This document shows, piece by piece, positions 4,774 through 45,672 of a DNA stretch of 64,000 nt (positions within the stretch are counted from its first letter, which is position 1; the number at the start of each line of letters is the position of its first letter). This DNA is from Prochlorococcus sp. AG-402-K16. Its GTDB lineage: Bacteria; Cyanobacteriota; Cyanobacteriia; PCC-6307; Cyanobiaceae. The notes under the pieces were generated by a model. That model was not told where the DNA came from. It ran no database searches and saw only the letters and a program-made list of their open reading frames with translations. A program made the position numbers and the translations under genes. The DNA is taken from NCBI GenBank assembly GCA_003216795.1, contig QCIH01000001.1, positions 186,001-250,000 on the forward strand, given 5' to 3'.

Positions 4774-5487
4774 AATTTATCCAAAACAATCAAAGAATTT
4801 GATGTTTCCTACCGCAAAGGAAGAGCAAAAATATCAGATCAAGAGTTTGACTCATTAGTAAGGAATTTAAAAAGGATTGATCCTAATAATTCCTACTTTC
4901 ACCAAAACAAAGTATTGCCTTCAATGGGCAATGGTAACTATGAGGAGTTCTTAGAAACTCTTCTTCAAGACACCAGATTAATCCTTACACCAAAGCTAGA
5001 TGGCTGCGCTGTTGGTCTTATGTACATCAAAGGAAAGCTAGTTCAAGCAATTACTAGAAAAGGTAAGGACAAAACCGAAGCACTAAAAACAATAAAAAAT
5101 ATTCCTCATAAATTGCCTATTAATATAGACATCCAAATTAGAGGGGAACTATATGGGCATGGATTAAAACCAACCAAGTCTCAAGCATTAGCGGGTGGCC
5201 ATTTAAGAAAAAAAATTCCTACAGGAGAAGGATTATCTTTTTGTAGTTTTGAAATCCTAAATTCAGAACTAAATAAACACACTCAACTAATACAACTTAA
5301 GAAGTTAGGTTTTGAAGTTCCAGAACATAAATTTACTAATTATCTAAGTGAAGTAGATCTATATCGAAAGCTTTGGTTAGAAGGAAAGCTATTTTCTTCA
5401 TATCCAATGGATGGATTTGTATTAACTGTAAATAGTAGAAAATTGCAGAAACAGCTTTATCAATATCAATATGCAATCAAATGTTGA
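4765..5487 (+). CDS. mini NAD-dependent DNA ligase, Ia plus adenylation domain only
   Basis: LigA-like N-terminal half. An Ia-type segment (YRKGRAKISDQEFDSLVRNL) is followed by the nucleotidyltransferase motifs: PKLDG at about 76-80 (the Lys is the expected adenylated residue), IRGEL (motif III), PMDGFVLTVN (motif IV) and the closing YAIK (motif V). The protein stops there at 240 residues; OB-fold, zinc, helix-hairpin-helix and BRCT domains of normal LigA (about 670) are absent. A paralogue is in T3, coupled to the recombinase. Self-adenylation looks feasible; nick sealing without an OB domain is uncertain. A role in integration or replication of the element is inferred from context. Confidence 0.85.
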   Translation: MYANLSKTIKEFDVSYRKGRAKISDQEFDSLVRNLKRIDPNNSYFHQNKVLPSMGNGNYEEFLETLLQDTRLILTPKLDGCAVGLMYIKGKLVQAITRKGKDKTEALKTIKNIPHKLPINIDIQIRGELYGHGLKPTKSQALAGGHLRKKIPTGEGLSFCSFEILNSELNKHTQLIQLKKLGFEVPEHKFTNYLSEVDLYRKLWLEGKLFSSYPMDGFVLTVNSRKLQKQLYQYQYAIKC

Positions 5488-18005: not shown

Positions 18006-18461
18006 AATAAAAAATATTTCTACTCTTTTTTTATAGATTATTTAGTTTAAAGCAGCTTTAAATCTCATTTAAATATTTTCATTTGATCTAGTTGACCCAA
18101 GACTAATTTAACTTGTAATTAGTCATGATTGTTTTAATTAATTTAATCAAAAATATTTTTAACTTCCACTTAATAAAATTGCCTTATTGGATTCTGTGGA
18201 GTAAAGCCTGTAAAGGTAACTGAATTTTCTCCGGTAAAAGGCTCCAAACCAAATACTCGAGATCGATGGATTAAGAAAGTTTTTCAACTAGGACTTAAAG
18301 GTAAGTGAGAATAATTAAAGTGAAAAGAGTAGAAAGTAAGTTACAAGATTCAGTAAAAGAATCTTCTATTAGATAAAAAAAGGAAGTGGAGGAGCTTTCT
18401 TATTAGTGAAGTAATCACAATTAGGACTAACTCTTTTTAAGTTGTCTAAGTATTAAGCGTT
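18006..18461. other. gene-poor junction with ligase and other remnants
   Basis: On the plus strand 18187-18309 is open for ...GFCGVKPVKVTEFSPVKGSKPNTRDRWIKKVFQLGLKGK and ends TGA, a probable remnant or short gene without a clear start. On the minus strand 18368-18442 encodes NLKRVSPNCDYFTNKKAPPLP, matching residues 32-55 of the T3 mini-ligase (RNLLRIDPNCDYFTNKKSLPLP), so it is a fragment of a third ligase. Confidence 0.6.
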
Positions 18462-19364: not shown

Positions 19365-20702
19365 TTAAACCGCTTGAAGTTCTCTAGCTTTTATAAATGC
19401 TTTTTTAGTAGTTGTAGTTTTAGCATAATCATACGATTCAAGATGTGTTCTTAATGTATGCCCCATTGCATCAGCAACACTTCCCGCATCAATTCCTAAT
19501 TGATGACCTCTTAATGAATAAGAATGTCTAAAGCTATAACAACCAAGACTTTCACCCCTTTTAGCCATTAATGCTTTAAGAGAAATCCAACCCGCTTTCT
19601 GTTTTAACCATTTACCCATCTGATCACCAACACCCTCAACAGTTTTGCAATCTGGCATACATTGATAGGGAAGTTCTAATAGACCCGCTTTGTACAATCT
19701 GACTACTTCTTCATAATGAACATTGCCATCATTATCAACTAAATAAAGAGGTTCTAATATTCTTGGTTTTGTTACGCCCTGACCCGATCTTTTTTCATAC
19801 ATACACCAAAGTTCATCTTTTCTCTTTTTATAAACCAAGTGTCTTAACTCAATAGGTCGTAAACCAAAAACAGCACAAAGCTTCATTGCATTAACCCATT
19901 TTTTAGCAGCGATTATGTGATGCGGTTGCCCTATTTCTGTTGGTAGAGAATTTATTAAATTAACAAACTCTTGATCTTCTATTGATGCTTTTTTATTTTT
20001 AGCTTTTTTAGCTTTTTCAGATGGTCTTCCAATGTATTCTCTTAAGTCATCTGGTGGAAGCCAATGATTAGGATAAGTTTTCTTAGTAACGCAATATTTT
20101 AAAAAAGAAGCAAGATTTCTCACTCTTTGTTCTCTAGCTCTACCACCAAGTTCATAAGTTAATGGTTTTGGTGCAATATTATTTCTTGCCATAAAGTCAG
20201 TAACCTTTTCAATTCCATTTTTTGCACAAATTTCTAATAATTTATCTGCATTTATTGGAGCATCTTTGGTTTTTAATAAGTTAACTGCATAATCAATGAC
20301 AGGTTCATACTCTTTAGTCCAAGTTATATCTTTAATACCAGTTCCCATCTCTTTTTTATATTTTTCAAAATCTTCTTTAGCACCAACCCAATCATGAGAA
20401 TAAGTTAATTTAGGAGCTAATCCCGCACATACAGCAACAGCAGAATCAAAATCACCGCCATTATTAGCCATCTCTACATAGATATTCCTAACCCGCGTAA
20501 TAATATCTCCCATGTCTTGGGCAGAGTAAGAAAAAGGAATATTATTTTTCATAAGCTGTGCAGATCTCATCCCTTCACCAGTTCTGACCTCTAATCTTGC
20601 AAGTCCTCTATGTTCTCTAACAGTCCAACCCTTTGCAGTAGAAGACCTAATGGCCATCTTAAAACCATTTACCCATGCTTCATTATTTTTAAGTTTGGGC
20701 AT
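19365..20702 (-). CDS. tyrosine recombinase (integrase) of T0
   Basis: Start taken at MPKLKNNEAW (20702), not the upstream 20753, because the arm repeats lie in between. About 445 residues. C-terminal catalytic domain: first Arg in AVFGLRPIELRHL, second box CYSFRHSYSLRGH (Tyr replaces the usual His before xxR), AMGHTLRTHLESYDYAK with the Tyr nucleophile. A long N-terminal region probably holds arm- and core-binding domains. It sits 213 bases from the intact tRNA-Pro and reads away from it. Related to the T3 recombinase in the GLRPxELRHLV...LWxMYEK region. Confidence 0.92.
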   Translation of the reverse strand: MPKLKNNEAWVNGFKMAIRSSTAKGWTVREHRGLARLEVRTGEGMRSAQLMKNNIPFSYSAQDMGDIITRVRNIYVEMANNGGDFDSAVAVCAGLAPKLTYSHDWVGAKEDFEKYKKEMGTGIKDITWTKEYEPVIDYAVNLLKTKDAPINADKLLEICAKNGIEKVTDFMARNNIAPKPLTYELGGRAREQRVRNLASFLKYCVTKKTYPNHWLPPDDLREYIGRPSEKAKKAKNKKASIEDQEFVNLINSLPTEIGQPHHIIAAKKWVNAMKLCAVFGLRPIELRHLVYKKRKDELWCMYEKRSGQGVTKPRILEPLYLVDNDGNVHYEEVVRLYKAGLLELPYQCMPDCKTVEGVGDQMGKWLKQKAGWISLKALMAKRGESLGCYSFRHSYSLRGHQLGIDAGSVADAMGHTLRTHLESYDYAKTTTTKKAFIKARELQAV

Positions 20703-20707
20703 TAATT

Positions 20708-20746
20708 TGCGTACATATATGCACAATGTACGCAACTTGTACGCAA
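20708..20746 (-). repeat. T0 right arm repeats upstream of the recombinase
   Basis: TGTACGCAA at 20727-20735 and 20738-20746 (11-bp period), plus an inverted TGCGTACA at 20708-20715. The same repeat is at 4756-4773. It lies just before the recombinase start, so the protein may autoregulate as well as recombine here. Confidence 0.7.
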
Positions 20747-20915
20747 AATGCAACCTAAGAGTGTCTTCGGGTTATAACAAAGGTTGACTAGATATTGCAC
20801 TAAATCCATTGACACTATTATAATCTAAGTAAGTAAAACGCTTGTTATTACTGCAAAAATTCTTTTTGTGACTATGTTTACTAACATCCCTGTAATAGAT
20901 TAGAATGATGTTTAG
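20747..20915 (+). promoter_or_regulatory. region before tRNA-Pro with promoter and a signal-peptide relic
   Basis: On the plus strand AAACGCTTGTTATTACTGC (20836-20854) repeats the KRLLLL signal-peptide start without an ATG. TAATAGATTAGAATGATG just before the tRNA provides a -10-like TAGAAT. The upstream region differs from those before the older 5' tRNA halves, consistent with having been supplied by T0. Confidence 0.5.
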
Positions 20916-20989
20916 CGGGGCGTGGCGCAGCTTGGTAGCGCGGGTGCTTTGGGAGCACTAGGTCGCAGGTTCGAATCCTGTCGCCCCGA
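20916..20989 (+). tRNA. tRNA-Pro (TGG anticodon), intact integration target
   Basis: 74 nt. Acceptor CGGGGCG/CGCCCCG with discriminator A, D-arm GCGCAGCTTGGTAGCGC, anticodon stem-loop GGTGC-TTTGGGA-GCACT (TGG), T-arm CAGGTTCGAATCCTG. No encoded CCA. It is the only complete copy; seven partial copies flank it. Its 5' part came with T0 and its 3' part with T1. Confidence 0.97.
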
Positions 20990-21012
20990 CTCAATCAAAT
21001 CCAAGTCATACT

Positions 21013-25911: not shown

Positions 25912-26041
25912 AAATGCTTAACTTTGCAACACTTTGCTGCATATAAGACAATTCTTGAGACTCATTTTGATAACAAATATTTGAAACTAAAGTCATAGCC
26001 TCACTTCGTTCTCATGGGTACTGTCGCAATTTGCTGATCGA

Positions 26042-26087
26042 GTGCTTTGGGAGCACTAGGTCGCAGGTTCGAATCCTGTCGCCCCGA
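26042..26087 (+). pseudogene. 3' half of tRNA-Pro (T2/T3 junction)
   Basis: GTGCTTTGGGAGCAC...CGCCCCGA, identical to the intact gene's 3' part. Confidence 0.95.
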
Positions 26088-26117
26088 TTGGGATTACAAA
26101 GATTGCTAATATTGCTC

Positions 26118-26136
26118 GTGGGAAAAATGTGGGAAA
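26118..26136 (+). repeat. T3 left arm repeat pair
   Basis: GTGGGAAA at 26118-26125 and 26129-26136, 31 bases after the tRNA fragment. 26137-26408 shows no convincing gene. Confidence 0.75.
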
Positions 26137-26408
26137 GAATATGGACAATAACGGACTAAAACTATTTAATTCTTAGGTTTTCCCACATCTTTCGGCTTGT
26201 GTGAGTTTTTCTTGTTGCAATAGCTCTAGTTCGTGTAATCATTAGTGGTATCAGGCGAATGCAGTAGAACAAAAACACACCTTGTTTCTAGTCTGGCTTT
26301 CCTTGTTAGCTCTATAACGTACGAGCTAGGTGTATTTAACTTCCTTTTAATTGATTGCCTAACAACAGACCCACATTTAATAAAGGTAAAAAAGTCACTC
26401 GTTCTAAT

Positions 26409-26597
26409 ATGACTAGACACGACTCTTACGGTTGTGCCTTAGATTTATTAGCCTTCGAAGAAGGTGGTATGACTATGAAAGCCGAAAAAGATTGGGAAGA
26501 TACTGTTGCTATTGCCTATCGGGAACTAAAGGGAAATAAATCACTAAGGAATGACCTTAAGAAACAATACGGACACGAAAAGTCCTTTAACTCTTAA
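26409..26597 (+). CDS. small hypothetical protein at the left of T3
   Basis: I start at the internal ATG 26409 (MTRHDSYGCALDLLAFEEGGMTMKAEKDWEDTVAIAYRELKGNKSLRNDLKKQ), since the upstream MPNNRPTFNKGKK is less likely. About 62 residues, charged, no domain. It overlaps the start of the HTH ORF. Confidence 0.45.
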   Translation: MTRHDSYGCALDLLAFEEGGMTMKAEKDWEDTVAIAYRELKGNKSLRNDLKKQYGHEKSFNS

Positions 26598-26835
26598 AAA
26601 CAGAGTATTTACGGAGAAAGCACAAGAACTATTAGGCGTTGGTAGAACTTTCCTTATGGAAAAGAAAGCTAATGGCGAATTTATAGTAGGTATTCATTGG
26701 GTTTATTCTTCAGGACGACCAAAAAGTCGCATTTTGTGGGATATTCCAGCAATACAGAAGTGGCAAGAAGAAAAGTCTATAGAGCACTTAGAAGCAGCTA
26801 CTAAAACTGCTGAAAATATAGAAGTTTTTGCGTAG
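26551..26835 (+). CDS. small HTH protein, excisionase-like
   Basis: 94 residues; the core LTLKNRVFTEKAQELLGVGRTFLMEKKANGEFIVGIHWVYSSGRPKSRILWDIPAIQKWQEEK matches the fold outline of the T0 gene at 5682 (HTH, then VGIHW/AGVHY, then an aromatic strand). Probable recombination-direction factor or early regulator. The real start may be later than 26551 given the overlap. Confidence 0.65.
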   Translation: MTLRNNTDTKSPLTLKNRVFTEKAQELLGVGRTFLMEKKANGEFIVGIHWVYSSGRPKSRILWDIPAIQKWQEEKSIEHLEAATKTAENIEVFA

Positions 26836-26846
26836 GGGGTAGAAAA

Positions 26847-27215
26847 ATGACAAATAAAAAAACCACCTCTGGCAAAGGTGGCTCTAATAACGAAAGTAGT
26901 CCTAATATAGCCCCTACTTGGGACTTTAAAAGAGTACAGGAAGAAAGTCAGGCACTTTTTGACACATATAAAAATATGCTCGAAAAGCCAGAAGCAAAGG
27001 AGCTTTTACTGCGTGAGTTATGCGAACAAAGGGCAGTAATGTACCAACTTATAGAAGCGTTTTCTATTAATAGAGAAGTTAGTTCTGGAGCAGCTAATAA
27101 CGCATCTAAAGCGGTTAAGTTGTACGAAGAATTGCTAAATCTAACAAGATCACAAGGCAAGAATTTTTCCAAAAGAATAGAAAAATTAGAAGATTACGAA
27201 AGCAGGGGGCTTTGA
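26847..27215 (+). CDS. small helical protein (MTNKK), 122 aa
   Basis: MTNKKTTSGKGGSNNESS... then a helical region (FDTYKNMLEKPEAKELLLRELCEQRAVMYQLIEAFSINREV...KAVKLYEELLNLTRSQ). Positional equivalent of the 59-residue T0 gene. A weak resemblance to phage small terminase or packaging adaptors in size and helicity cannot be confirmed by eye. Confidence 0.6.
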   Translation: MTNKKTTSGKGGSNNESSPNIAPTWDFKRVQEESQALFDTYKNMLEKPEAKELLLRELCEQRAVMYQLIEAFSINREVSSGAANNASKAVKLYEELLNLTRSQGKNFSKRIEKLEDYESRGL

Positions 27216-27219
27216 TGAT

Positions 27220-27807
27220 ATGCAAAGCTCAAAAAGAAATAACCCCTGTCCTGTCTGCGGTAGGACAAAAGACAGCGATTGCCGTTGGGATAATGACGTA
27301 ATTTTTTGCCATTGCGGAAGTAGTTTTGCACCGCCTAGCCATTTAAAAATTGGCGATATTATCCGTCTTGACGGTAAAGATTGGGCATTAGTAAAAACTA
27401 ACTCTGGGCATACTGGTCTATGTCATGTATTTAAACCGCATAGACATATAGAGAAAACTTACACACCTACACCAAGACAAAAGCAACAAGGCCAAGATAG
27501 AGAACAATATTTATTTAAAGAATCAGTTAAAGCGGTCGAAGAATATATAAAGCTAGCTAACGCTGCATTAGAGGTAATTAACTACGAATATTGCAATTTA
27601 AAGCAAATTAAGGAATCAAAAGCATTAATTAATAGAGCTTTTGACGAAGGTAAGGAACTAAGAGAAGTGCTAGTAGGTGTTAGACGGTTTAACAAAAATA
27701 TTGAGGAATTTATTGAATTATTTGACGAAAAATATCGCCCTATTAAATACCAAAAAAAAGCATCTGACGAATTTTGTTGGAATCACTTAGGAGAAATAGA
27801 CGAATGA
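27220..27807 (+). CDS. zinc-ribbon protein, primase-type finger
   Basis: 195 residues. N-terminal CPVCGR...DCRW...FCHCGSSF is a zinc ribbon like those at the start of phage/plasmid primases. A small beta segment (IIRLDGKDWALVKTNSGHTGLCHVF) and a long helical C-terminus follow. It overlaps the RecA-like gene start as ATGA. Plausible DNA-recognition subunit of the T3 replication module; no primase catalytic motif is visible. Confidence 0.65.
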   Translation: MQSSKRNNPCPVCGRTKDSDCRWDNDVIFCHCGSSFAPPSHLKIGDIIRLDGKDWALVKTNSGHTGLCHVFKPHRHIEKTYTPTPRQKQQGQDREQYLFKESVKAVEEYIKLANAALEVINYEYCNLKQIKESKALINRAFDEGKELREVLVGVRRFNKNIEEFIELFDEKYRPIKYQKKASDEFCWNHLGEIDE

Positions 27808-29099
27808 GCTACTTAGATCGTGCCCATCTTCCCCCAGAAGAAAAACTAGCAGCTTTAAAAAGTGCTTATGCAGAACACTTAGACCCTGTAAAACCTGACC
27901 CAATGGCAGAAAAGCTATTGCAGTTAGACGAAGAAGTCGACAAGTTTTTCTTGCCTGACTCAATAATTAAGCCTACTGACCGATACATATATATAAGAGA
28001 CTTTTCTAAAGCTATCGGTATTAAGTTAACCGAAAAGGAAATCCACCAAAAATTATGGCAGGGTCGTAAACGGTTCGAAGGTGTTGCAGAAGGTTTTGAC
28101 CCGCACGTTCCTATAGAAGTACCAAAGGTCGATTGGGCTTGGGACGGTTTATGGCGTAGCAGTACTCAAAACTTATTAGTGTCATTGCCTAAATGTGGCA
28201 AAACTACATTGGCAATAGATGCAATCGCACATTGGCATAGAGGTAATTCAGAATTTTTAGGTCATAGATTTATTGGAAAATGTCCACCGTTAATAATTGT
28301 TGGAACTGATATGGCTCTCTCTGATTGGTCGCCTTTACTATGTCGTTTTGGTCTGGCTAAAAAGATAGATGACGACCACATAGACCTATTAGACCCAATA
28401 GTTAAATTATTTACTGCGGATACACCTATTCATTTAGATAGGGACGGACTAGAAAACTTAGTTAATTTAGCTGCGGAAAATGTAGGGGCTTTATGGTTAT
28501 TCGATAGTTATTCGAAGTTAACAGCACCGTTAGGATTACAGGAATCTAGTGCGGAAATAAGTTACCCAATGCAAGACTTAAACGAATATTTAAGTCCATA
28601 TAAAGCAACGCAAGTGATTATCCACCATAGCGGAAAGCAAAAGGGTGCTAGTCCTGTAATGGCTTCCAGAGGTAGCACTTCTTTAACTGCTGCGGTTAGT
28701 CAGATTATTAGCCTTAAATGGTTTAACAGAGAAGAAGATCGAAACGACAAAAGGATATTAATAGAAACAGAAGGACGGTCGACAGATGTTTCTTTATTAA
28801 TAAGCCAAGAATCGCAGGGCTTTATTTTGGAAGGAACTGTAGAAGAAGAAATAGAAAAGCAAAAATATAACGAAAAATTAGAAAATTTAACTGATAATCA
28901 ATACGAAGTATTAGAGCTTATAACGACCAGTAGTAAAGAAGGCATAGAAATAACTACTAAAGACTTAAAAGAACAACTAGGTCTAAGTAGTAAAACAGCC
29001 TTAAGAACGTGCAGGGCTTTAGTTAAAAAGTCCTTTATTCTGGAACGTGTAGGTAGTAACGATAAGGGAAAAATATCATTTTTTAAGTTAAAACCTTAA
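27804..29099 (+). CDS. RecA-like (RepA/AAA_25) ATPase with C-terminal winged helix
   Basis: Start at ATG 27804 (MSYLDRAHLPPEEK), overlapping the upstream stop; 431 residues. Walker A variant LVSLPKCGKTTLA at about 125-137, a strand LIIVGTDM, Walker B ALWLFDSY, and IIHHSGK as in RepA-type helicase-loader ATPases. The last 70 residues (LTDNQYEVLELITTSS...LGLSSKTALRTCRALVKKSFI) form a winged helix. Likely replication initiator or helicase of T3, functionally replacing the VapE-like protein of T0. Confidence 0.82.
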   Translation: MSYLDRAHLPPEEKLAALKSAYAEHLDPVKPDPMAEKLLQLDEEVDKFFLPDSIIKPTDRYIYIRDFSKAIGIKLTEKEIHQKLWQGRKRFEGVAEGFDPHVPIEVPKVDWAWDGLWRSSTQNLLVSLPKCGKTTLAIDAIAHWHRGNSEFLGHRFIGKCPPLIIVGTDMALSDWSPLLCRFGLAKKIDDDHIDLLDPIVKLFTADTPIHLDRDGLENLVNLAAENVGALWLFDSYSKLTAPLGLQESSAEISYPMQDLNEYLSPYKATQVIIHHSGKQKGASPVMASRGSTSLTAAVSQIISLKWFNREEDRNDKRILIETEGRSTDVSLLISQESQGFILEGTVEEEIEKQKYNEKLENLTDNQYEVLELITTSSKEGIEITTKDLKEQLGLSSKTALRTCRALVKKSFILERVGSNDKGKISFFKLKP

Positions 29100-29457
29100 G
29101 TGGGTGTCCCTAGTGGGTCGGGGGTTTTGTGTCCCTAGTGTCTTTAGCTTAACGATATTACTAAGGACGCTATACCCACAAAGGGCGTGGGACACTAAGG
29201 GCATACCTTAACTAATGGCACTAAAGACGCTAAAGACATCTAAGTAATAACTAGCATCTTTAATTATGTTAAGAAACTGTAATAATTAAATAGGTGCAAA
29301 TAAGCTGCAATTAGTGCAATTTAGACGCTTTTAGTGGACATTTAATGTTAATAAGAATTAAATACAGACATCTACGAACAAGTCGCTAATTACACCTAAT
29401 AAATATCAACAATTAGCAAGAAATTAGGCTCAAAATTATATAAGTTACATAAATATT
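29100..29457 (+). other. non-coding repeat-rich region before the capsid gene
   Basis: Contains GTGTCCCTAGTG-type repeats (29104-29140), a partly inverted GGGACACTAAGGGC at 29188, tandem CTAAAGACG/CTAAAGACA near 29222-29240 and TTAGACGC/TTAGTG tracts. No ORF. Its place between the replication and capsid genes suits an origin or packaging site; this is inference. Confidence 0.4.
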
Positions 29458-29592
29458 ATGCGTAGACCGCATAAGACAGATAAAGACTTATCTAACAGAC
29501 CTAAACCCTCTGAAGATGCGTTGCAATCTGCACAATATAGACGCTACTTGCGTGACCAATTAGAAAAACAACTCGGACATTATCGAGACTAA
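29458..29592 (+). CDS. small ORF coupled to the capsid gene, 44 aa
   Basis: MRRPHKTDKDLSNRPKPSEDALQSAQYRRYLRDQLEKQLGHYRD, basic and helical, ending 2 bases before the capsid-fusion ATG. Missed by the track because of size. Could be a small head or scaffold component; no homology recognised. Confidence 0.5.
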   Translation: MRRPHKTDKDLSNRPKPSEDALQSAQYRRYLRDQLEKQLGHYRD

Positions 29593-29594
29593 TT

Positions 29595-31226
29595 ATGGAA
29601 ACAATTAACGAAGTAACTCTGCAAAGACGCTATCTATCTCTAATTGATGAGACAGAAGAAGATCAGGCAGACACTTTAAAGTTTTCTTTTTCTAGTGAAA
29701 AGCCTGTAAGTCGCTATGCCTTTGACGAAGTTTTAGACCATAGCGAAGCAAGCGTAGACATGACCCGACTTAATGCGGGTGCTCCTTTATTGTTTAACCA
29801 CAATCCAGACAAGCCTATAGGTGTAGTCCAAAGAGCTTGGTTAGATGATCGCAAAGGATATGCACGAATTAAGTGGGGCACTTCCCAATTAGCGGAAGAA
29901 GTACGCAAGGACGTAGAAAACGGAATCCTTAAATCAATTTCGGTCGGTTATCGAATTAACGAAACAGACACCGAAGAAAAGTACGGAATCGTAAGGGCTA
30001 CAAGTTGGACACCTTATGAGCTCTCGGTTGTAACTATCCCCGCAGATCATTCGATCGGAATAGGGCGGTCGTTAGTAGAGCAAAAACCAGAAAAACAACC
30101 AAAAAAGGAATTTTTAACTCAAAAAACAATGTCACAAGCAATTTCGACTATTAATGACGGTTGGACAGAGTACGAAAGAGAATCTAGTCAATTTTCTATA
30201 GTTCGTGCTTTACAGGCAAGTGTTAGCGGTAATTGGTCTAATGCAGGACGTGAGAGAGAAGTTCAGCAAGAACTAGCTCGTCTTAATGGCAGAGAATCAC
30301 AAGGAATCTTTGTACCAGAAAACGGTTGGGCAAAGAGAGACTATACAAAAGGGTCATCTACTCAAGGCCAAAAGTTAATTGGTACAGATCATTTAGCAGA
30401 CCGTTTTGTAGATGTTCTTAGAGCAAGATTAGTAGTCGCAGAAATGGGAGCTACTATGTTGCCTGGACTTGTTAGTGATGTCTCAATTCCTAGAAGAACT
30501 GCGGGCGGAACTGCGTACTTTGTAGCGGAAGCGGGTAACGTAACCGAGTCGACAGGTACATTCGACAATATTTCTATGTCGCCAAAAGTAATGGGGGCAT
30601 TTAGTCAGTTTTCTTATTTAATGCAGCTACAAGCTACACCAGAAATAGAAGAACTTATTAGACAAGACTTTATTGCTTTACTTGCACAAAAATTAGACCA
30701 AGTTGCTATTAATGGCGGTGGTTCTAACGAGCCTAACGGAATACTACAAACTAGCGGAATTGGCAGCGTAGTTATCGGTACAAATGGCGGGGCGATCACA
30801 TTAGATAAGATGCTCGACCTTAAGCAAACAGTTGCAGTAGATAACGCAGACCTTCCAACTGCGGGCTTCCTAACTAATACAAAAGTAGAGAACGCTTTAA
30901 GCAAATTAAAAGACGGAAATAGCCAATACTTATTAAGTCCTTACGGTGGCGAAATAGGTCAGCAACAACTAGCTAATAGAACATTTATGGTTAGCAACAA
31001 CGTGCCAAGCAACCTTACAAAAGGAAGCTCTAGCGGTGTATGTTCAGCAGCTATTTACGGTAACTTCTCTGACTTATTAATAGGTATGTTTGGAAGTCTT
31101 GAACTACTTGTAGATCCTTACACACAATTCCAATCTGGCGGTGTAGGCATTAGAGCTTTACAAGGTGTCGATATTGCAGTTCGTCACGCTGAATCCTTCG
31201 GAGCAATCCTAGACATAACTACATAA
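29595..31226 (+). CDS. prohead protease (S78) fused to HK97-type major capsid protein
   Basis: 543 residues. N-terminal 160: HK97 prohead protease outline with LLFNHNP (catalytic His about 69), GILKSISVGYRI (catalytic Ser in the SVGY motif, about 116) and SWTPYELSVVTIPAD. Then a short helical scaffold-like linker (EREVQQELARLNGRE) and an HK97-fold coat: VSIPRRTAGGTAYFVAEAGNVTESTGTFDNISMSPK, SYLMQLQATPEIEELIRQDF, GSNEPNGILQT, LTNTKVENALSKLKD, FMVSNNVP and YGNFSDLLIGMFGSLELLVDPYT. The protease would release the coat by self-cleavage. No portal, terminase, head-tail or tail gene is in T3, so packaging must use a helper or another route. Confidence 0.93.
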   Translation: METINEVTLQRRYLSLIDETEEDQADTLKFSFSSEKPVSRYAFDEVLDHSEASVDMTRLNAGAPLLFNHNPDKPIGVVQRAWLDDRKGYARIKWGTSQLAEEVRKDVENGILKSISVGYRINETDTEEKYGIVRATSWTPYELSVVTIPADHSIGIGRSLVEQKPEKQPKKEFLTQKTMSQAISTINDGWTEYERESSQFSIVRALQASVSGNWSNAGREREVQQELARLNGRESQGIFVPENGWAKRDYTKGSSTQGQKLIGTDHLADRFVDVLRARLVVAEMGATMLPGLVSDVSIPRRTAGGTAYFVAEAGNVTESTGTFDNISMSPKVMGAFSQFSYLMQLQATPEIEELIRQDFIALLAQKLDQVAINGGGSNEPNGILQTSGIGSVVIGTNGGAITLDKMLDLKQTVAVDNADLPTAGFLTNTKVENALSKLKDGNSQYLLSPYGGEIGQQQLANRTFMVSNNVPSNLTKGSSSGVCSAAIYGNFSDLLIGMFGSLELLVDPYTQFQSGGVGIRALQGVDIAVRHAESFGAILDITT

Positions 31227-31569
31227 GTAGTTAACCAGAGGGGTTAACGTATTGGGTGTTTTGTTTCTTCGCACCCTTCTTCCATAGTTCGATCGGGCAG
31301 TAGAACGAATATGTTAATCCCTCTATAAATCCCATTCTCAATAAGAATCTATAGGCCATATTTTGACACCCTATATATGGAAAATAGGTTCTTTTTCTCT
31401 GTCTGTGTGTGGGTAATTTCGAGCCCCAAAATTTTTCTAGGCACAGCGTCCATATCTAGTGGACACTTTCAATTCTCAATAAGGCAAAATAAGCAAAAAT
31501 AAGGGCATATTATACCGCATAAATCCAGTTAGCAACTACTTTCTTATGTATCTCTAAATTGGTGTAAAA
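31227..31569 (+). other. non-coding region with the conserved cis-element shared with T0
   Basis: 31407-31440 TGTGTGGGTAATTTCGAGCCCCAAAATTTTTCTAGG closely matches T0 8269-8310, and the following GGACACTTTCAATTCTC matches 8333-8355. Then AATAAGGCAAAATAAGCAAAAATAAGGGC gives three near-repeats, echoing the AT repeats at 8040-8100. A homologous HTH gene follows. Candidate packaging (cos-like), origin or operator site. Confidence 0.5.
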
Positions 31570-31803
31570 ATGAAACCAGTTAATGTAAAACTTACAGTTA
31601 GTCAGGCAGCAAAAGAGTTAGGTTACAGTTCCAGATCGACACTTTATAACCTGATAAAAAAAGGCTATTTAAATAATTATTTATGGGTAGATGATAAGGG
31701 CAGAAAATACTTAGAAATGAACCCTGTAGGTCGTAGATCACTTAAGGCTTACTTGCCCGCAATTATTAAATGGCGATCGGATTGCGTACACCTAAAAAAA
31801 TAA
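31570..31803 (+). CDS. small HTH protein paired with the conserved cis-element
   Basis: 77 residues: LTVSQAAKELGYSSRSTLYNLIKKGYLNNYLWVDDKGRKYLEM, homologous to the T0 gene at 8389. A basic tail follows. It probably binds the neighbouring conserved element or acts as regulator/excisionase. The gene is convergent with the mini-ligase. Confidence 0.7.
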   Translation: MKPVNVKLTVSQAAKELGYSSRSTLYNLIKKGYLNNYLWVDDKGRKYLEMNPVGRRSLKAYLPAIIKWRSDCVHLKK

Positions 31804-31880
31804 CGTCCACTATATGAGAAGTTGACGCTAAAAAATTATCGTGCTTTCAGATGACCCACGAATATAGATAAAAAAAGAAC

Positions 31881-32636
31881 CTAGTACTTTATTGCCATAG
31901 CCCAATGTGGGTATGTTCCGTAAGATTTTTCTCTAATAAGTTGTAATTTTCTGCTATTTATTTTGACTACTATTCCGTCTGTTGGATAGTTTGCAAATAG
32001 CTTTTTATCTAGCCATTGCTTTCTATACATTTCTAGTTGAGTTGTAAAGTTAAGCGTTTTATATTCTGGAATCGTAAAGCCTAATTTTTTTAAATATTTA
32101 AGCGAATCGTGTTGGTTAAGTTTTCCGTTAATTATCTGGAAAGCACAAAAGCTAAGATGATCGCTTTTAGAATCAGCAGCCCTAAGATAACCGCCCGCCT
32201 GTCTTTGAGAATAACTAGGTCGTTCATATTCTGACGGATTAAAAAGTTCGCCCCTTATCTGGGTAACACCTGTAATTTTTATCTTAGTTGGTACGTCTGG
32301 AATAGCTGCAATTTTATTAGTTAAGTCTTGCCCTTTTCTACTAATAGCTTTTTCTAATAGGCCATCACGATATTGCAAAGCGATCGCACAACCGTCTATT
32401 TTTGGTTCGACTATTAATCTAGTATCGGGCAATAAACCTTCTATAAATTCTTCTATCTGATCTTTAGGTAGAGAAGGTAAAGGCAAAGATTTTTTATTCG
32501 TAAAGTAATCGCAATTAGGGTCTATTCGTAATAAGTTGCGTTCTAACTGGTCGAATTGTTTATCTGTAATCAGGGCATTTCCTGACCGATAATTTTCGTC
32601 ATACCATTTAATTCGTTCTTCTAAGTATGTCGTCAT
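31881..32636 (-). CDS. mini NAD-dependent DNA ligase coupled to the recombinase
   Basis: 251 residues, same two-domain layout as the T0 copy. Ia segment YRSGNALITDKQFDQLERNL; VEPKIDGCAIAL with Lys about 79; QIRGELF; PTDGIVVKINSRKL; closing HWAMAIKY. Domains after motif V are absent. Its ATG overlaps the recombinase stop (ATGA), so the two are translated together. That coupling is the best hint that the ligase acts in the element's integration, excision or circle repair. Confidence 0.87.
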   Translation of the reverse strand: MTTYLEERIKWYDENYRSGNALITDKQFDQLERNLLRIDPNCDYFTNKKSLPLPSLPKDQIEEFIEGLLPDTRLIVEPKIDGCAIALQYRDGLLEKAISRKGQDLTNKIAAIPDVPTKIKITGVTQIRGELFNPSEYERPSYSQRQAGGYLRAADSKSDHLSFCAFQIINGKLNQHDSLKYLKKLGFTIPEYKTLNFTTQLEMYRKQWLDKKLFANYPTDGIVVKINSRKLQLIREKSYGTYPHWAMAIKY

Positions 32637-33814
32637 GCTGCTAACTGTTTTGCAAACTTGTCGCTTATTCCATCTGGAATAAATCTTGCGTAATTTTGTT
32701 GATGCACTTCGGAAGTATGACCCATAACAAAACTAATATCTTTTATAGATAGTCCTAACTCTGTAGACCGTTCGTGGGCTACTTTTGCGAACCTATGTCT
32801 AAAGGCATAAGGCACGAGTTCTTCTTTTAGTTTTTCTGCTTGTTTTTTAAATTTAAGCCAAGTTTTATTACGTCTTAATCTTGTACCTAATGCTTCCCCG
32901 CCTTTTCCGTCTTGTCCTAAAGGTGGCAGTTCTTCTTCCAAAGATACACGTTCTAATAAATTCCAATCAATGCAACCCTGTCCGTCTTTTACATATAAAG
33001 GAGCTAATTTTCTAGGTTCTGTCTTTTGACCTTTAACACCGCCCATAGACTTTTCATACATATTCCATAGTTCGCCATCTTTAACGACTAGATGTCTTAG
33101 TTCCTCTGGTCTAAGTCCATAAACTGCTAGTAATTGATACGCAAATTGCCATTTTTTGTCCGTTTCTGACGCTATTAGCTCCAATATCTGCGAATCTGTC
33201 AGGGCGTAGCCTATTCTTTTCTTTTTTAATGTTTCTGTAATTCTTACAGGTGCATAGATATTAGATAATTTTCCCCTTAAAACTGCATAATCTAGGAATT
33301 TTTGTAATGCTCGTCTTGCTATCTGTCTCGATCTACTACCTTGTTCCCATTGCTTAAGTGCTTTAAGCATTAAATCTTCGCCATCAATAGGCTTTTTTTT
33401 ACTGGTTAATAGTTCCTTAGTTTTAGTTAATACAGGCTTGTAAGATTTTTCCCAAGTAGTCTTACTAACTGTTGGTAGAAACTCTCTAAAGTCTTTAATA
33501 GTTTCGTCTAGGTTTATATCTGATTTAGAGCTAGCAGTATTAACAACCTCGCAAGACTTAGCCAAAGAAAATTTGCCTGTATCTGAATAAAAGTTCTTAT
33601 ATATTTCTATGATTCTGCGGGCTGCATTAAATAGACCTTTTTTGTCCCATTCATATTCCAATATTCTTGATTGCTTTTTACCTTCGTGTAAAACTTCTAA
33701 CTTTACGCTTCCTCTACTTTCCGATATATACCAAGCAGCCCCAGAGTGCATTTCTGCCCGCATAGCCTGTCTAGCAGCTTTAACCCAATCGTTCTTATGT
33801 GTAGTAACTGGCAT
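32633..33814 (-). CDS. tyrosine recombinase (integrase) of T3
   Basis: I start at MPVTTHKNDW (33814); the ORF to 33868 would overlap the arm repeats. About 393 residues. Catalytic residues: AVYGLRPEELRHL (Arg I), PYAFRHRFAK (Tyr in place of the usual His, then Arg II), VMGHTSEVHQQNYARF (His and Tyr nucleophile). The long N-terminal part has an arm-binding-like beta segment (SGAAWYISESRGSVKLEVLHEGKK). It reads away from the tRNA fragment, as in T0. Confidence 0.92.
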   Translation of the reverse strand: MPVTTHKNDWVKAARQAMRAEMHSGAAWYISESRGSVKLEVLHEGKKQSRILEYEWDKKGLFNAARRIIEIYKNFYSDTGKFSLAKSCEVVNTASSKSDINLDETIKDFREFLPTVSKTTWEKSYKPVLTKTKELLTSKKKPIDGEDLMLKALKQWEQGSRSRQIARRALQKFLDYAVLRGKLSNIYAPVRITETLKKKRIGYALTDSQILELIASETDKKWQFAYQLLAVYGLRPEELRHLVVKDGELWNMYEKSMGGVKGQKTEPRKLAPLYVKDGQGCIDWNLLERVSLEEELPPLGQDGKGGEALGTRLRRNKTWLKFKKQAEKLKEELVPYAFRHRFAKVAHERSTELGLSIKDISFVMGHTSEVHQQNYARFIPDGISDKFAKQLAA

Positions 33815-33861
33815 GAGCACTAGGTCATTTAATATATCTATTGTGGGAAAAACGTGGGAAA
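33815..33861 (+). repeat. T3 right end: half-site plus arm repeat pair
   Basis: GAGCACTAGGTC (33815-33826, exact tRNA-Pro match) touches the recombinase start codon. GTGGGAAA follows at 33843-33850 and 33854-33861. The half-site-to-core distance is 146 bases, slightly shorter than the 162-164 of T1, T2 and T4. Confidence 0.75.
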
Positions 33862-33964
33862 AAGTCAACCTCTAGTGAACATTTACGAACAATACAAAAC
33901 AGTAGAATATTGCTACTACTGTTGTTATGACTAAAAAGTCTAAATATAGCTTAATTTGACCAGT

Positions 33965-34009
33965 TGCTTTGGGAGCACTAGGTCGCAGGTTCGAATCCTG
34001 TCGCCCCGA
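33965..34009 (+). pseudogene. 3' half of tRNA-Pro (T3/T4 junction)
   Basis: TGCTTTGGGAGCAC...CGCCCCGA; identical to the intact tRNA except that the first core base is T (33964) instead of G. Confidence 0.95.
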
Positions 34010-34027
34010 CTCTTAAAAACCAAGTCA

Positions 34028-40312: not shown

Positions 40313-41743
40313 TTATTTTTGTTGAGCTAAAGGATCAAAAATATCGCTAATAATATTGAACACAGATGCAATTATTGGTTTATCCCTTAATTTAATCTTG
40401 CTACTTACTGCCATTCCAGATCTTAACTCATCAAAACTAAACTTTCCTTTAATTTCTGACGCTATAAGCTTTATTTCTGCAATATATGTTCTTCGATTAA
40501 CTCCAGATGTGGTGTCAGTTGAGACCGTGGGTGAAATACTAAAAACTTCAGCGATAATTCCTCCAAAGTCGTCTGAGGGGAAAGCGTCAACTTCAACTAT
40601 AGCTTCCATTCCAACTTGAATCGGGGCACTAACTTTTGAAGGAATCGATGCTCTTGCTATTAATTCATTATCAGGAACAACAGTAATAACAACATCATTT
40701 GCCATTATTCTTTCCCCTGGACTTTGATATTTTATGTTTTGTATAAATCCCTTTACTGGGGATACTATTTTAAATCTATTATTTTTTGCCTCAAGTTCTA
40801 AAATGAGAGTAGAGAGTTGTTCTAATTGCTCTGAGTTTTGAAAAAGAATATTATCTTTTTCTAATAGATTTGCATTATAATTTTTTTCTAACTGGTTTAA
40901 TTCTAAATTAGTTTGCATGTACTGAACATCAGATATGGCGCCAGCCTTATTCAATAATTCATATTTTTCAAGAAGAATTTTTTTAAAGTTTATTTCCTCA
41001 CTTAACTGTCCTAATTTTAGATCATAAGATTCAAAAAGGTTTCTCCTTTGATTTTGCGCATATTCAAGTCTTTTTCTAGCACCATTCAGCCTGGCTTTAG
41101 TTTCATCATCTTCATAAATTAATAACAAAGTATCTTTTTCCACATACTGATTAGTTTTAACAAAAAGCTCTGTGATTTTTCCAGGGTCCATTGCACTTAT
41201 CTTAACTTCAGGCGTAATCGTTGTTAATTCTCCTGTAAGAATAATTGTTTCTTCAATGGTAGTAAAAATAGACCAAATTATAATTGATATAGAACCTGTA
41301 CTTAATGTCCAAATAAAGATTCTAGACCAAACCGGAGGTGGAGGTAGAAGCGTAACATCTGCATTAATATTTTCTGAATTACCGAAATTACTTAAAACAC
41401 TCGATACTCTATCTTTAATGAAAACTTTGGGGTTTTTTATAAAAAATTTTATTTTTTTTAAACGAGTTTTTTTAAATAAAAAATCCTTGTATGAATTCAG
41501 TAATTGGTAAAATCTTTGCTTTTTTATAATTAAATTGCTCTTTTTATAGTAAAAATCAATAAAAGAATATTTTTGCTTATTTAAATTAGAAATCAAAGAT
41601 CTGCTTAATTTAAATTTCCCAATAATTTTGAATTTTCTTATTGAGATTAAGTTATGTAATTTTTTGTTTTTAAAAAAAAAAGAAACTTTTTTCTTAATTT
41701 GTTTTTTCCTTAAAATTTTTTTAATTTTTTTATAAAAATTCAT
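40313..41743 (-). CDS. type I secretion membrane-fusion (HlyD-family) protein
   Basis: 476 residues. A long basic N-terminal cytoplasmic tail (about 130 residues, unusual for HlyD) precedes the membrane anchor WSRIFIWTLSTGSISIIIWSIFTTI. Then lipoyl-like half PGKITELFVKTNQYVEKDTLLLIYE, a coiled-coil hairpin (NGARKRLEYAQNQRR...LEKNYNANLLEKDNILFQN), second lipoyl half VKGFIQNIKYQSPGERI and beta-barrel LIARASIPSK...GMEAIVEV...LRSGMAVSSKIKL. Partner of the ABC exporter 6 bases upstream; it bridges to an outer-membrane TolC not in the window. Confidence 0.92.
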   Translation of the reverse strand: MNFYKKIKKILRKKQIKKKVSFFFKNKKLHNLISIRKFKIIGKFKLSRSLISNLNKQKYSFIDFYYKKSNLIIKKQRFYQLLNSYKDFLFKKTRLKKIKFFIKNPKVFIKDRVSSVLSNFGNSENINADVTLLPPPPVWSRIFIWTLSTGSISIIIWSIFTTIEETIILTGELTTITPEVKISAMDPGKITELFVKTNQYVEKDTLLLIYEDDETKARLNGARKRLEYAQNQRRNLFESYDLKLGQLSEEINFKKILLEKYELLNKAGAISDVQYMQTNLELNQLEKNYNANLLEKDNILFQNSEQLEQLSTLILELEAKNNRFKIVSPVKGFIQNIKYQSPGERIMANDVVITVVPDNELIARASIPSKVSAPIQVGMEAIVEVDAFPSDDFGGIIAEVFSISPTVSTDTTSGVNRRTYIAEIKLIASEIKGKFSFDELRSGMAVSSKIKLRDKPIIASVFNIISDIFDPLAQQK

Positions 41744-41749
41744 TAAATT

Positions 41750-44680
41750 TTATTCATTAAACTGGGAATTATAAAGTGCATAATATCTTCCTTTTTGCTT
41801 CATAAGTTCTAAATGGCTTCCTTCTGAATCAACTTTACCATTGTGCATAACTATTATTTTATCAGCTTCAACAATGGTAGATAACCTATGAGTTATCATA
41901 ACCATTGTTTTATCTTTAAATTCCTCTCTCATATTGCTAACCACTTGTTTTTCAGTATCAACATCAAGTGCTGACGTTGCCTCGTCAAGGACGACTAAGT
42001 TAGGCCTCTCTAACAACATCCTAGCTAGAGCTACTCTTTGCCGCTGCCCACCCGATAAACCTGAACCCTTCTCCCCAATAGGGGTACCATATCCAAATGG
42101 TAAAGTCATTATAAATTCATGAGCGCAAGCCGCCTTCGCAGCATCAACTACCTTTTCAGCAGAAATCTCAGGATCTCCTAACGCGATATTACTAAAAACT
42201 GTACCCTCAAAAAGCATACAATCTTGAGGAACAAAACCAATTTGTCTTCTCAAACTATATAAATCTACTTTTGTAATATCAAAGTCATCAATCAAAAGTT
42301 TACCTGAAGTTGGCCTATATAGCCTAGGAATCATTTTTAACAATGAGCTTTTGCCGCAACCACTTTGTCCAACTAGGCCTACAAAAGAGCCATTCTTAAT
42401 TTCAATATCTACTGAATTCAATACTGGACTTGCAGTTGTACTATATGCAAATCCAACATTAATTGCCTTTATAGAACCTTTTACTTCTGGCATTTCTATG
42501 TTTTTATCTTCATTTTCTAATACTTCTAAGGGTTGATTTACAATATCTCCAACTCTCTGAAGAGAAAGTGACATTTCTTGAAATTGTTGCCATGATCCTG
42601 ACAACCTAAGCATAGGTTGTGTTACGTAACCACTAATAATTCTAAAAGCGATCAGTTGACCTAAGGTCAACTCATTTTTAATAACTAACCAAGAACCGAT
42701 TCCGATAACAGCTATATTATTTAATTTATTAATTAATTGACCAGCATTTGTGCTACTAGTGTTCGCGAGTATAGCTTTAAAACCTTGATTTATTGATTTT
42801 AAGTGCTTGTCTTCCCATTGCCTTCTTGCATTATATTCAGCATTTTGAAGTTTTATAGTATGAATGCCTCCTAAAATTTCCACTAAAAATGCATTAGTTC
42901 TTGCTTGAGCCTCTGCTCTCAATCTAATTAGTTTTTGAGTTATTGGAGTAACTCCAACAGTCACAATAAATAATAATGGTACAGAAAGAAAAACAATCAT
43001 TGTCAGTAAAGGACTGTAGAAAACCATAACAGTGAAATAAAGTACTGAAAATATTGCGTCTAGAACTACTGTAAGAGCAGTTCCTGTTAAAAATCTTCTT
43101 ATATTTTCTAACTCGTTCAACCTACTTGATAATTCTCCTACTGGTCTAGAATCGAAAAAGCGGGCATTAAGCCTTAACATTCTGGATAATATTGCGGAGC
43201 CAATACCAATATCAATCCGATTTGAAATTTCAACAAATTGGAAAGTCCTTAAACTACTAAATGCGATCTCGAGCAAACTAAAAACTACCATTAAAACTAC
43301 CAAAGGAGATAAGGCCTCTGTAGCCCCTTTAGCTAAAACCCTATCTATTATTTGTTGAAATAAAAGCGGAGTCGCCAACTGAAATAATTGATTAAGAAAA
43401 CTTGCTGCAAAAACTTCAACAAGTTGTGTTCTAAATTTTTGTATATAAGGGAAAAGCCATGCAAGGTTAAAACGATTTTTTGGTGTATTCAAACCAACCT
43501 CTAATGTAATTATTTTATTTTCTTTTTCAAAAAAAATATTTGCTTCTTGAGAATTTAAAAATTTCATCCCTTTAATGGGATCATATAAAGTAATAAATTT
43601 TGAGTTACTTTTTAAAATTAAATTACAGATACCTTCATCATTAATCCATATAGAAGGGGCTGGTATTAATAAGGGATTTTTTCTATTTATACTTACAATT
43701 TTCACATTAAGGCCAAATCTATCAAGTAAATTTACAGTATTGTTGATCCAAGATTTTCTTTGTTCTTCGATTATTTTTGAGGCCCGACGAATCGTTTCTG
43801 AACGAGTAGGCATATCAAAGAACTTTATAATCATAGAAATTATTGCAAAATAGCTTTCCTCTCTGTTACTAGCATTTATTAATTCAAAATCTAAATTATT
43901 ATTTTGAAAACTTTTTGATTTATTAGTATCATATTTTATTTTCTCTTTATTTCCATCTTTAGAGCTCAATGATTTTGTTATTTTATTTAGTTGATCTGTT
44001 GTTTCTATATTTGTTTCGATAGTTTTATCTTGTAAATTTATATCTGACAAAGAATTTTCATCATCTAATTTAACTATTGATATTCTTCTATGATTTTCAG
44101 AAAAAAATTTTTTATATATTTCTCCGTTAATATATTGCCCATAATTAAATCCACTATGAGGTTTATCTAAATAAATAATCTTATCAGTTTTTCTTATCTT
44201 AGATATATCTTGAGAAATATTAAATATTTTCCCTAAATCATTAAATAAATAATTTTTATTCAAAAGGAATTCTTTAAAATTGGTCTGATTTAAAAGAAGT
44301 TTGAATAAGAAAATTAGTTCAAAATTACAAACCTGATTTTTAAATAAATCAAAAATTTTAATGAGTTTTTCTTCTGATAAATCTTCAATATTTAGAAGAT
44401 AATATTCACAATTAGTGTTCGCTCTTACCTCACCTTTAATGTTTGAATTTAACAAATTTGTAAAGCCAATAAAAAAAGGTGCTTCAAATAAACCCAGAGT
44501 CTGAGATTTAAATATTTTTTCGTTGTCAATTAATCTTATTGTACCTTTAGTTAAGAATATTAAATTATTTTTTGAAGCTTCTGAAGAATATATTAAAGAT
44601 CCTATGTCAGATTTTTTGAAAGTTAGATTATCTTGAGAAATAGACAATAATTTACTATATTGTTCTTGATTAAATTTCAT
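41750..44680 (-). CDS. type I secretion ABC exporter with CNB-like and C39-like N-terminus
   Basis: 976 residues. 1-120 resembles a cyclic-nucleotide-binding fold (SLIYSSEASKNNLIFLTKGTIRLIDN...). About 270-400 is a C39-peptidase-like region (SYFAIISMIIKFFDMPTRSETIRRA...KFITLYDPIKGMKFLNSQEANIFFEK) without the catalytic Cys, i.e. a docking rather than cleaving domain. Six-helix ABC core about 410-700, then the NBD: Walker A GLVGQSGCGKSS, signature LSGGQRQR, Walker B LVVLDEATSALD, H-loop MITHRL. It overlaps the isomerase gene by 4 bases. Confidence 0.93.
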   Translation of the reverse strand: MKFNQEQYSKLLSISQDNLTFKKSDIGSLIYSSEASKNNLIFLTKGTIRLIDNEKIFKSQTLGLFEAPFFIGFTNLLNSNIKGEVRANTNCEYYLLNIEDLSEEKLIKIFDLFKNQVCNFELIFLFKLLLNQTNFKEFLLNKNYLFNDLGKIFNISQDISKIRKTDKIIYLDKPHSGFNYGQYINGEIYKKFFSENHRRISIVKLDDENSLSDINLQDKTIETNIETTDQLNKITKSLSSKDGNKEKIKYDTNKSKSFQNNNLDFELINASNREESYFAIISMIIKFFDMPTRSETIRRASKIIEEQRKSWINNTVNLLDRFGLNVKIVSINRKNPLLIPAPSIWINDEGICNLILKSNSKFITLYDPIKGMKFLNSQEANIFFEKENKIITLEVGLNTPKNRFNLAWLFPYIQKFRTQLVEVFAASFLNQLFQLATPLLFQQIIDRVLAKGATEALSPLVVLMVVFSLLEIAFSSLRTFQFVEISNRIDIGIGSAILSRMLRLNARFFDSRPVGELSSRLNELENIRRFLTGTALTVVLDAIFSVLYFTVMVFYSPLLTMIVFLSVPLLFIVTVGVTPITQKLIRLRAEAQARTNAFLVEILGGIHTIKLQNAEYNARRQWEDKHLKSINQGFKAILANTSSTNAGQLINKLNNIAVIGIGSWLVIKNELTLGQLIAFRIISGYVTQPMLRLSGSWQQFQEMSLSLQRVGDIVNQPLEVLENEDKNIEMPEVKGSIKAINVGFAYSTTASPVLNSVDIEIKNGSFVGLVGQSGCGKSSLLKMIPRLYRPTSGKLLIDDFDITKVDLYSLRRQIGFVPQDCMLFEGTVFSNIALGDPEISAEKVVDAAKAACAHEFIMTLPFGYGTPIGEKGSGLSGGQRQRVALARMLLERPNLVVLDEATSALDVDTEKQVVSNMREEFKDKTMVMITHRLSTIVEADKIIVMHNGKVDSEGSHLELMKQKGRYYALYNSQFNE

Positions 44681-45405
44681 TCGCCTAAGAAATTATTAAT
44701 CATTTCTTTATTAATTTGCAGAGAAAGTTGCCTCACCTTTGAATTTAAAAGCATTTTACCTAATACCTCTTTGGTTGATTGATTTAGTTCACTATCAAAC
44801 CTATATTCTAATCTTAAAATAACAAACCACTCATCAATAGGAAAGGGTTTGAAAAGCTGTTTAGGAGTAGCAGTTCTTAATCTTGAAGAAATCTCAGGAT
44901 GAGGTACTGTTAAATCGCAAGGCCCCAAAATTCCCTGAGTTTTCGCTTCAGGACCTTCGCTATATTTCTCAGCAGCATCTCCAAAACTCATTTCTCCTGA
45001 TTCTATTGAATAGTAAAGATGTTGAGCAAGATTTTCATCCGCAATCCTCAAACAACTATATAACGTTCTATCTAATCGATCTTTAAATCTTAAAAAAAGA
45101 GCCTCAGCATTACTCGATATTAATTGATCTACAATATTTCTTCTTTTAAATCTAAACTGAGCATATTCAGAAAGTGATTCTATATCGGTCGATAATAAAT
45201 TAGATTTTTGCCAATTAATTAAAGTTTCCTTATCTTTAATATCCAATTCTTTCATTAGACCTTCGATAGCTTCTTTATCAGAAATTTTCGAATTCGAGTT
45301 TAAATTGAATTCATTAATAAAACGCAATTCCGCCTGAAATGCTGCATAGGGTGTAAGTAAGTTGCCCATTGCCAAGAGTTTCATGATTGATTTTGGGTCT
45401 TGCAT
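44677..45405 (-). CDS. PpiC/parvulin-type peptidyl-prolyl isomerase
   Basis: 242 residues, no signal peptide. N-terminal helical half (FKRRNIVDQLISSNAEALFLRFKDRLDRTLYSCLRI) and a parvulin-like region about 110-200: LAQHLYYSIESGEMSFGDAAEKYSEGPEAKTQGILGP...LFKPFPIDEWFVILRLE. First gene of the isomerase-exporter-adaptor operon; it may keep the giant substrate secretion-competent in the cytoplasm. Such isomerases are often fused or linked to cyanobacterial T1SS exporters. Confidence 0.82.
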   Translation of the reverse strand: MQDPKSIMKLLAMGNLLTPYAAFQAELRFINEFNLNSNSKISDKEAIEGLMKELDIKDKETLINWQKSNLLSTDIESLSEYAQFRFKRRNIVDQLISSNAEALFLRFKDRLDRTLYSCLRIADENLAQHLYYSIESGEMSFGDAAEKYSEGPEAKTQGILGPCDLTVPHPEISSRLRTATPKQLFKPFPIDEWFVILRLEYRFDSELNQSTKEVLGKMLLNSKVRQLSLQINKEMINNFLGE

Positions 45406-45672
45406 TTTTGTTGTTTATTATTTAAAAATTTCTTTAGGGCTTTAATATAATCTAAAGATTCTAATTTACAAAATTAATCTTGTATGAATAGATACCAAAA
45501 AAAGAATTATTAAAACTAAGTTAGCTTCAATTACTTTTAATCAAATTAATTTATTTTGTAATATGAATAATGCATTTTTTTAGTACTAACTAATAAATAA
45601 GTTATCAATCAAAATAAATTTTGTATTTTAATTTCGAATAAATTTTTATTACTAAAAGTATTAATAATTAAA
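45406..45672. other. AT-rich gap between giant protein and secretion operon
   Basis: Nearly pure A/T with no ORF. It should hold the terminator of the giant gene and the promoter of the secretion operon (minus strand); I see no clear hairpin. Confidence 0.5.

Follow-up and report, generated by a model that had tools for sequence, protein, structure and literature searches.

Tycheposons and Prochlorococcus phage satellites are reportedly integrative elements that are flanked by tRNAs and carry a tyrosine recombinase and, in some cases, capsid genes (Hackl et al. 2023). In the textbook scheme, both tyrosine and serine recombination conserve the phosphodiester energy and leave no nick; a DNA ligase beside an integrase is therefore surprising, and the original prediction that such a neighbour is unexpected can be upheld. 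Ligases made up of a nucleotidyltransferase (NTase) domain, with the OB domain provided in trans or absent, are known from the kinetoplastid editing ligases and from truncated T4 Rnl2. To our knowledge, the characterised NAD+ ligases depend on an OB domain to carry out steps 2-3 of the ligation reaction. Here we describe a predicted minimal NAD+ ligase of Prochlorococcus that is encoded directly behind an integrase.

A recombinase-ligase pair in a capsid-bearing element

The window (i.e. the whole stretch of 64,000 nt that was analysed, to which all coordinates refer) contains the following features at and around the ligase gene:

20916-20990, forward strand: intact tRNA-Pro(TGG), target of tandem elements (ARAGORN and repeats)
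26041-26090, forward strand: the element's proximal att, a tRNA-Pro 3'-half repeat (repeat search)
27774-29099, forward strand: AAA_25 (RepA-like) ATPase with a winged-helix C-terminus (PF13481, 1.9e-10)
29595-31226, forward strand: HK97-type major capsid protein and prohead protease region (PF05065, 5.9e-39; PF04586, 3.3e-9)
31570-31803, forward strand: AlpA-like HTH protein, convergent with the ligase (PF12728, 4.9e-6)
31881-32636, reverse strand: mini NAD+-ligase, 251 aa (PF01653, 8.5e-24; catalytic residues; AlphaFold model)
32633-33868, reverse strand: tyrosine recombinase, 411 aa (TTG start) or 393 aa (ATG start at 33814; PHROG integrase, 2.3e-17)
33963-34012, forward strand: the element's distal att, a tRNA-Pro(TGG) 3'-half repeat (direct repeat of 50 nt with 92% identity to the reference copy)

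Repeats of 50 nt that correspond to the 3' half of tRNA-Pro(TGG) begin at 22772, 26041 and 33963. The last two enclose an ~8-kb segment (26041-34012) with the ATPase, the HK97 capsid-protease region and the AlpA-like HTH gene, whose position is kept in related satellites; the ligase and the recombinase read inward from the distal repeat, and this pair closes the element. The HK97 capsid is its sole named structural gene, and it does not comprise a complete phage genome. With tRNA-derived direct repeats at both ends and an integrase at one end, the element is, judged by its anatomy, a phage-satellite or tycheposon-like island. Copies of the 5' half of tRNA-Pro are found at 2459-2497, 3445-3483 and 4655-4693, all to the left of the intact tRNA; the three 5'-halves on the left and the three 3'-halves on the right share the core GTGCTTTGGGAG in the anticodon arm, and according to this layout elements are stacked on both flanks of one tRNA-Pro.

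It had been claimed from the letters that the integrase stop and the ligase start share ATGA and that the ligase keeps its adenylation motifs, ends at motif V and lacks the OB, zinc, HhH and BRCT domains; both claims are borne out. The two reading frames share four nucleotides, ATGA, and the alignment to PF01653 (NAD ligase adenylation domain) nearly reaches the end of the profile. The protein consists of domain Ia and the NTase domain only, and no OB, Zn, HhH or BRCT domain is found within its 251 aa; its C-terminus lies one residue past the motif V lysine (WAMAIKY). NTase motifs I, III, IIIa, IV and V are all present with complete motif residues (K79-x-D-G, R100, E130, F163, D220-G-x-V-x-K225 and K250), and in domain Ia the residues Y16, D25, F28 and D29 align with the NMN-site positions of LigA, F28 being Tyr in LigA. 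The AlphaFold model (pLDDT 87; predicted helical N-terminus) retrieves LigA adenylation domains as top matches in a structure search (E 5e-18). The NCBIfam LigA/LigB equivalog cut-offs are missed (88.7 bits versus 444; 76 versus 498), the OB profile PF03120 has no match in the genome itself (92.5% complete), and no OB reading frame was found in any mini-ligase locus. The recombinase reaches Pfam profiles below threshold only; its Arg, Arg-His and Tyr motif residues are visible in the sequence.

The ligase follows integrases of two classes

For the linkage survey we considered 28 non-core mini-ligase copies (loci L001 and L007-L033) that had been detected in a set of 200 genomes of the genus; the genomes were sampled one per species and many are incomplete, the loci were picked by score, and element boundaries outside the window were traced in part. 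Linkage proved to be conserved in this co-occurrence check on other genomes: an integrase lies directly upstream on the same strand in 14 of the 28 copies. Ten of these integrases are tyrosine recombinases (two of them fragments) and four are serine recombinases (one frameshifted), the latter being large integrases with Resolvase and Recombinase domains. In the reverse search all five full-length serine integrases were followed by a ligase, one of the five with an internal stop, and 30 tyrosine-recombinase loci had an intact ligase in eight cases, a truncated one in three and none adjacent in 19. As 19 of 30 same-family recombinase loci do without the gene and some copies are truncated, the ligase is dispensable.

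In nearly all pairs the ligase ATG is found at, or a few bases from, the integrase stop (ATGA or TAATGA), even though the integrases are not related to each other at their 3' ends. Across 13 pairs, ligase identity shows no correlation with recombinase identity (Mantel r=0.15, p=0.20), e.g. the ligases of L040 and L041 are 99% identical and their recombinases 39%. The mini-ligases form a single clade apart from LigA (support 98/99), in which serine-linked copies are interleaved with tyrosine-linked ones. The integrase is swapped and the ligase retained. A ligase dedicated to a tyrosine recombinase, as the original prediction had it, is ruled out by the serine-integrase versions and the missing co-divergence, as well as by the tyrosine-recombinase loci without a ligase.

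All catalytic and NMN-site residues are kept in the tabulated integrase-linked copies (15 tyrosine, 4 serine), save for an F163C exchange beside a recombinase fragment. Among integrase-linked pairs, including pairs across the integrase classes, dN/dS is 0.03-0.20 (Nei-Gojobori; the values are approximate because dS is near 1 in some pairs), and these ligases are under strong purifying selection with a dN/dS of about 0.1. The sequences thus support a real, conserved, integrase-linked minimal NAD ligase with complete catalytic residues. As several truncated fragments end near codon 55, a programmed frameshift was suspected there; it is ruled out, as the fragments trace back to one stop codon and to replacement alleles of at least two unrelated kinds.

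Further ligase copies in the window

The left half of the window contains two further traces of the family and a second recombinase:

4655-4693, forward strand: att that precedes the T0 ligase, a tRNA-Pro 5'-half repeat (repeat search)
4765-5487, forward strand: second mini-ligase (T0), motif IV Lys changed to Thr, ~70 bp downstream of the tRNA-Pro 5'-half (profile match, alignment)
18375-18452, reverse strand: mini-ligase fragment (residues 31-56), downstream of YR2 (62% identity, E 1.7e-5)
19365-20753, reverse strand: second tyrosine recombinase, YR2, beside the intact tRNA-Pro (PHROG integrase, 6.5e-6)

The copy at 4765 had been taken as intact. Its reading frame is open, but with the motif IV exchange and a deletion of ~7 aa ahead of motif V it is not catalytically intact. 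The fragment announced at 18368 is real, its position being 18375-18452 on the reverse strand. YR2 is 28% identical to the recombinase at 32633-33868, and two more full-length mini-ligase copies are present elsewhere in the same genome, outside the window. The left half looks like a second, 16-kb element made up of the tRNA-Pro 5'-half (4655), the T0 ligase, YR2 and the intact tRNA. By gene names read off the sequences by eye, segment 4655-20990 contains the mini-ligase, a VapE-like helicase, arsR/gap/transporter-like, pstS-like and porin-like genes, a phoR/phoB-like two-component pair and the tyrosine recombinase; its phosphate-acquisition cluster looks like the cargo of an integrative element. 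In other genera, a ligase is located just downstream of the tRNA-Pro end in L098 and L099 and adjoins the recombinase in L096. In an excised circle either layout, with the ligase at the tRNA end or by the recombinase, would place both near att. Further to the right, at 40313-58167, a 4164-aa protein with Ig-like repeats is encoded beside a type I secretion-like ABC transporter, an HlyD-family protein and a rotamase; it is probably a giant secreted or surface protein with its own export system.

Proposed role

We tentatively favour, at a little below even confidence, a minimal, catalytically competent NAD+ ligase that would serve the DNA of the element and be co-expressed with the integrase, rather than a recombinase cofactor. 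Satellite and tycheposon-like elements would carry it as part of an integration/excision operon, and stop-start coupling on the integrase mRNA would probably secure its translation, so that, on this proposal, it would be made when the integrase is made. It would probably charge itself with AMP from NAD+ and seal nicks in the element's own DNA, which excision or integration could leave at att or close to it and which could also arise in the freed circle during replication and recombination; DNA may be bound via its own NTase surface or via a partner in trans. An enzyme that serves DNA and not one particular recombinase would allow tyrosine and serine integrases to be exchanged ahead of it. Indeed, the ligase is retained with two unrelated recombination chemistries and does not co-diverge with the recombinase, and element DNA is therefore a likelier target than one particular recombinase.

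Judged by its sequence and neighbourhood, nick sealing in the element's DNA appears to be the most plausible role. Self-adenylation is very likely, sealing itself is about an even bet because the OB fold is missing and no OB partner was found, and the site of action is weakly indicated. Against this explanation stand the OB requirement of the characterised enzymes, the nick-free canonical recombination, the dispensability of the gene and the ATP-dependent ligases of the host (see below).

Viral and host relatives and alternative explanations

The ligase might also be a replicative or repair enzyme of the element or phage, sealing Okazaki fragments or gaps and following the integrase merely as part of an early-expressed operon, with no tie to recombination. 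We consider this rather unlikely, although its viral and host relatives speak for it. In IMG/VR, 39 contigs carry a complete mini-ligase (239-289 aa) within replication/recombination modules. A gpZ-like gene (PHROG minor tail) precedes it in 35 of them (L105-L140), where the ligase mostly closes a helicase/VRR_NUC/VapE-like primase module, and no integrase was found in the fetched flanks of these module-borne copies. In the other four (L101-L104) a small gene comes after the ligase, belonging to one family throughout; in L101, the member tested, it is a RusA Holliday-junction resolvase with 1-nt overlap. RusA-type resolvases leave nicks. These viral neighbours process or resolve DNA junctions, which fits the sealing of recombination or replication nicks alike. 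The pairing with the gpZ-like gene is unexplained; as a general ligase partner this gene is ruled out, having no homologue in the Prochlorococcus loci. Nor did plasmids show a mini form among the matches listed, those plasmid entries being full LigA by annotation or unannotated.

On the host side, the window belongs to a Prochlorococcus genome of the high-light (HL) type, the 25 relatives found in GTDB contigs all being Prochlorococcus, and in an order-level sample all 59 genomes of the genus with at least 85% completeness contain at least one mini-ligase. HL Prochlorococcus, a clade label that we read from members such as MIT 9302 (L053) and from the loss pattern, has two near-universal core positions (core copies A and B) without an integrase neighbour. 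Core copy A (L061:2975-3931 and orthologues) abuts a conserved hydrophobic ORF of 68 aa, for which a Pfam search gave no match. The LigA OB domain was detected in 141/141 sampled genomes of other genera versus 1/59 of the genus, and a LigA query in 14 HL genomes returned mini-ligases only. Canonical LigA thus appears to be lost in HL Prochlorococcus (58 of 59 sampled genomes), and a host clade without LigA would suit a replicative function. An ATP-dependent ligase of ~444 aa occurs in 24/24 HL genomes tested and is absent from the LigA-bearing relatives tested, the HL hosts having one or two ATP-dependent ligases each. G352, the sole LigA-bearing genome of the 59, gave no ATP-ligase match. The loss of LigA conflicts with a published statement that the species also possesses a replicative NAD-dependent enzyme (PMC6698739); mini-ligases may have been counted as such.

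What argues against a purely replicative enzyme is that in the satellites the AAA ATPase and VapE-like genes are encoded on the strand opposite to the ligase, which yet stays with the integrase of either class, and that capsid-less cargo-type elements likewise retain the integrase-ligase pair. The ligase is present in 9/14 capsid-bearing versus about 5/17 capsid-less elements, a trend we do not use because the sample is biased by the way in which the loci were found.

The missing OB domain makes ligation steps 2-3 doubtful, and the protein may have given up ligation and act as an adenylyltransferase, with NAD+ as the AMP source and protein or 5' ends as acceptors, or may sense NAD+, and in this way regulate the integrase or the host. 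HL core copy B speaks for this reading, since it keeps motif I but not R100, D220 or the Lys of motif V; overall the reading is improbable, as none of the integrase-linked copies has lost motif IV or V, both of which transfer to DNA requires. Still less probable is accessory cargo. Other satellites keep anti-helper, counter-defence or superinfection genes in the slot behind the integrase, and in ligase-free elements of the same family this slot holds an HTH/Xis-like gene (in several cases an HTH gene 24-30 bp downstream) or unrelated genes, which, like the dispensability of the ligase, is what cargo would predict; yet one ligase lineage is kept behind two integrase classes, and the PADLOC defence library gave no match, which speaks against an anti-phage defence gene. 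Truncated copies exist (window 18375; L177-L179, L058, L059), but a functionless remnant kept by hitch-hiking is hardly credible, since the selection test contradicts it for the integrase-linked copies that are intact, as do their complete active sites.

Comparison with known systems

If active, the nick-sealing enzyme that we favour would rank among the very small NAD+ ligases found in nature and would break the rule that sealing needs an OB fold. As it is coupled to integrases of two unrelated classes, one may ask whether site-specific integration of satellites in the ocean's most abundant phototroph leaves nicks that need sealing, and the presence of the family as core genes in a clade without LigA raises the question of a host role. 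A far-reaching version, which we regard as unlikely, would be a recombination-ligation module: the smallest natural NAD+ ligase, OB-less, would work with two unrelated integrase chemistries (or a host OB protein) to seal excision/integration nicks, a step missing from the textbook, and the family would have been kept as HL core genes after the loss of LigA. The literature searched contained neither an OB-less NAD+ ligase type nor a coupling to exchangeable integrases; the original tycheposon paper lay beyond that search and may list the gene, in which case the novelty drops.

With the adenylation fragment of LigA (Ia and NTase, PF01653) the mini-ligase has the fold, the motif set and the NMN-site residues in common. 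Bacterial LigA, however, extends into OB, Zn, HhH and BRCT domains, whereas the mini-ligase naturally stops at motif V and scores below the curated LigA cut-offs. The heterodimeric NAD+ ligase of T5-type phages (LigA and LigB subunits; PR1 phage, PDB 9hu3/9i5i) likewise has a short Ia and is 28% identical to the mini-ligase over the whole length; its subunit A possesses an OB fold (PF03120, 3.8e-22 in BF23) and its subunit B HhH/BRCT domains, but the mini-ligase loci have neither. A C-terminal LigA profile, searched against these loci as well, matched only full LigA and BF23 ligB, and a T5-type split ligase with its missing subunit nearby is ruled out, since no reading frame for an OB or C-terminal domain was found at the mini-ligase loci. 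Kinetoplastid editing ligases and truncated T4 Rnl2 resemble the mini-ligase in having an NTase domain without an OB fold; unlike it, they are ATP-dependent RNA ligases without the NAD+ domain Ia. As to the element itself, its tRNA flanks, tyrosine recombinase and capsid gene are those described for tycheposons, which sometimes carry capsid genes, and the elements in which the ligase follows a serine integrase differ from these as a variant of the satellite.
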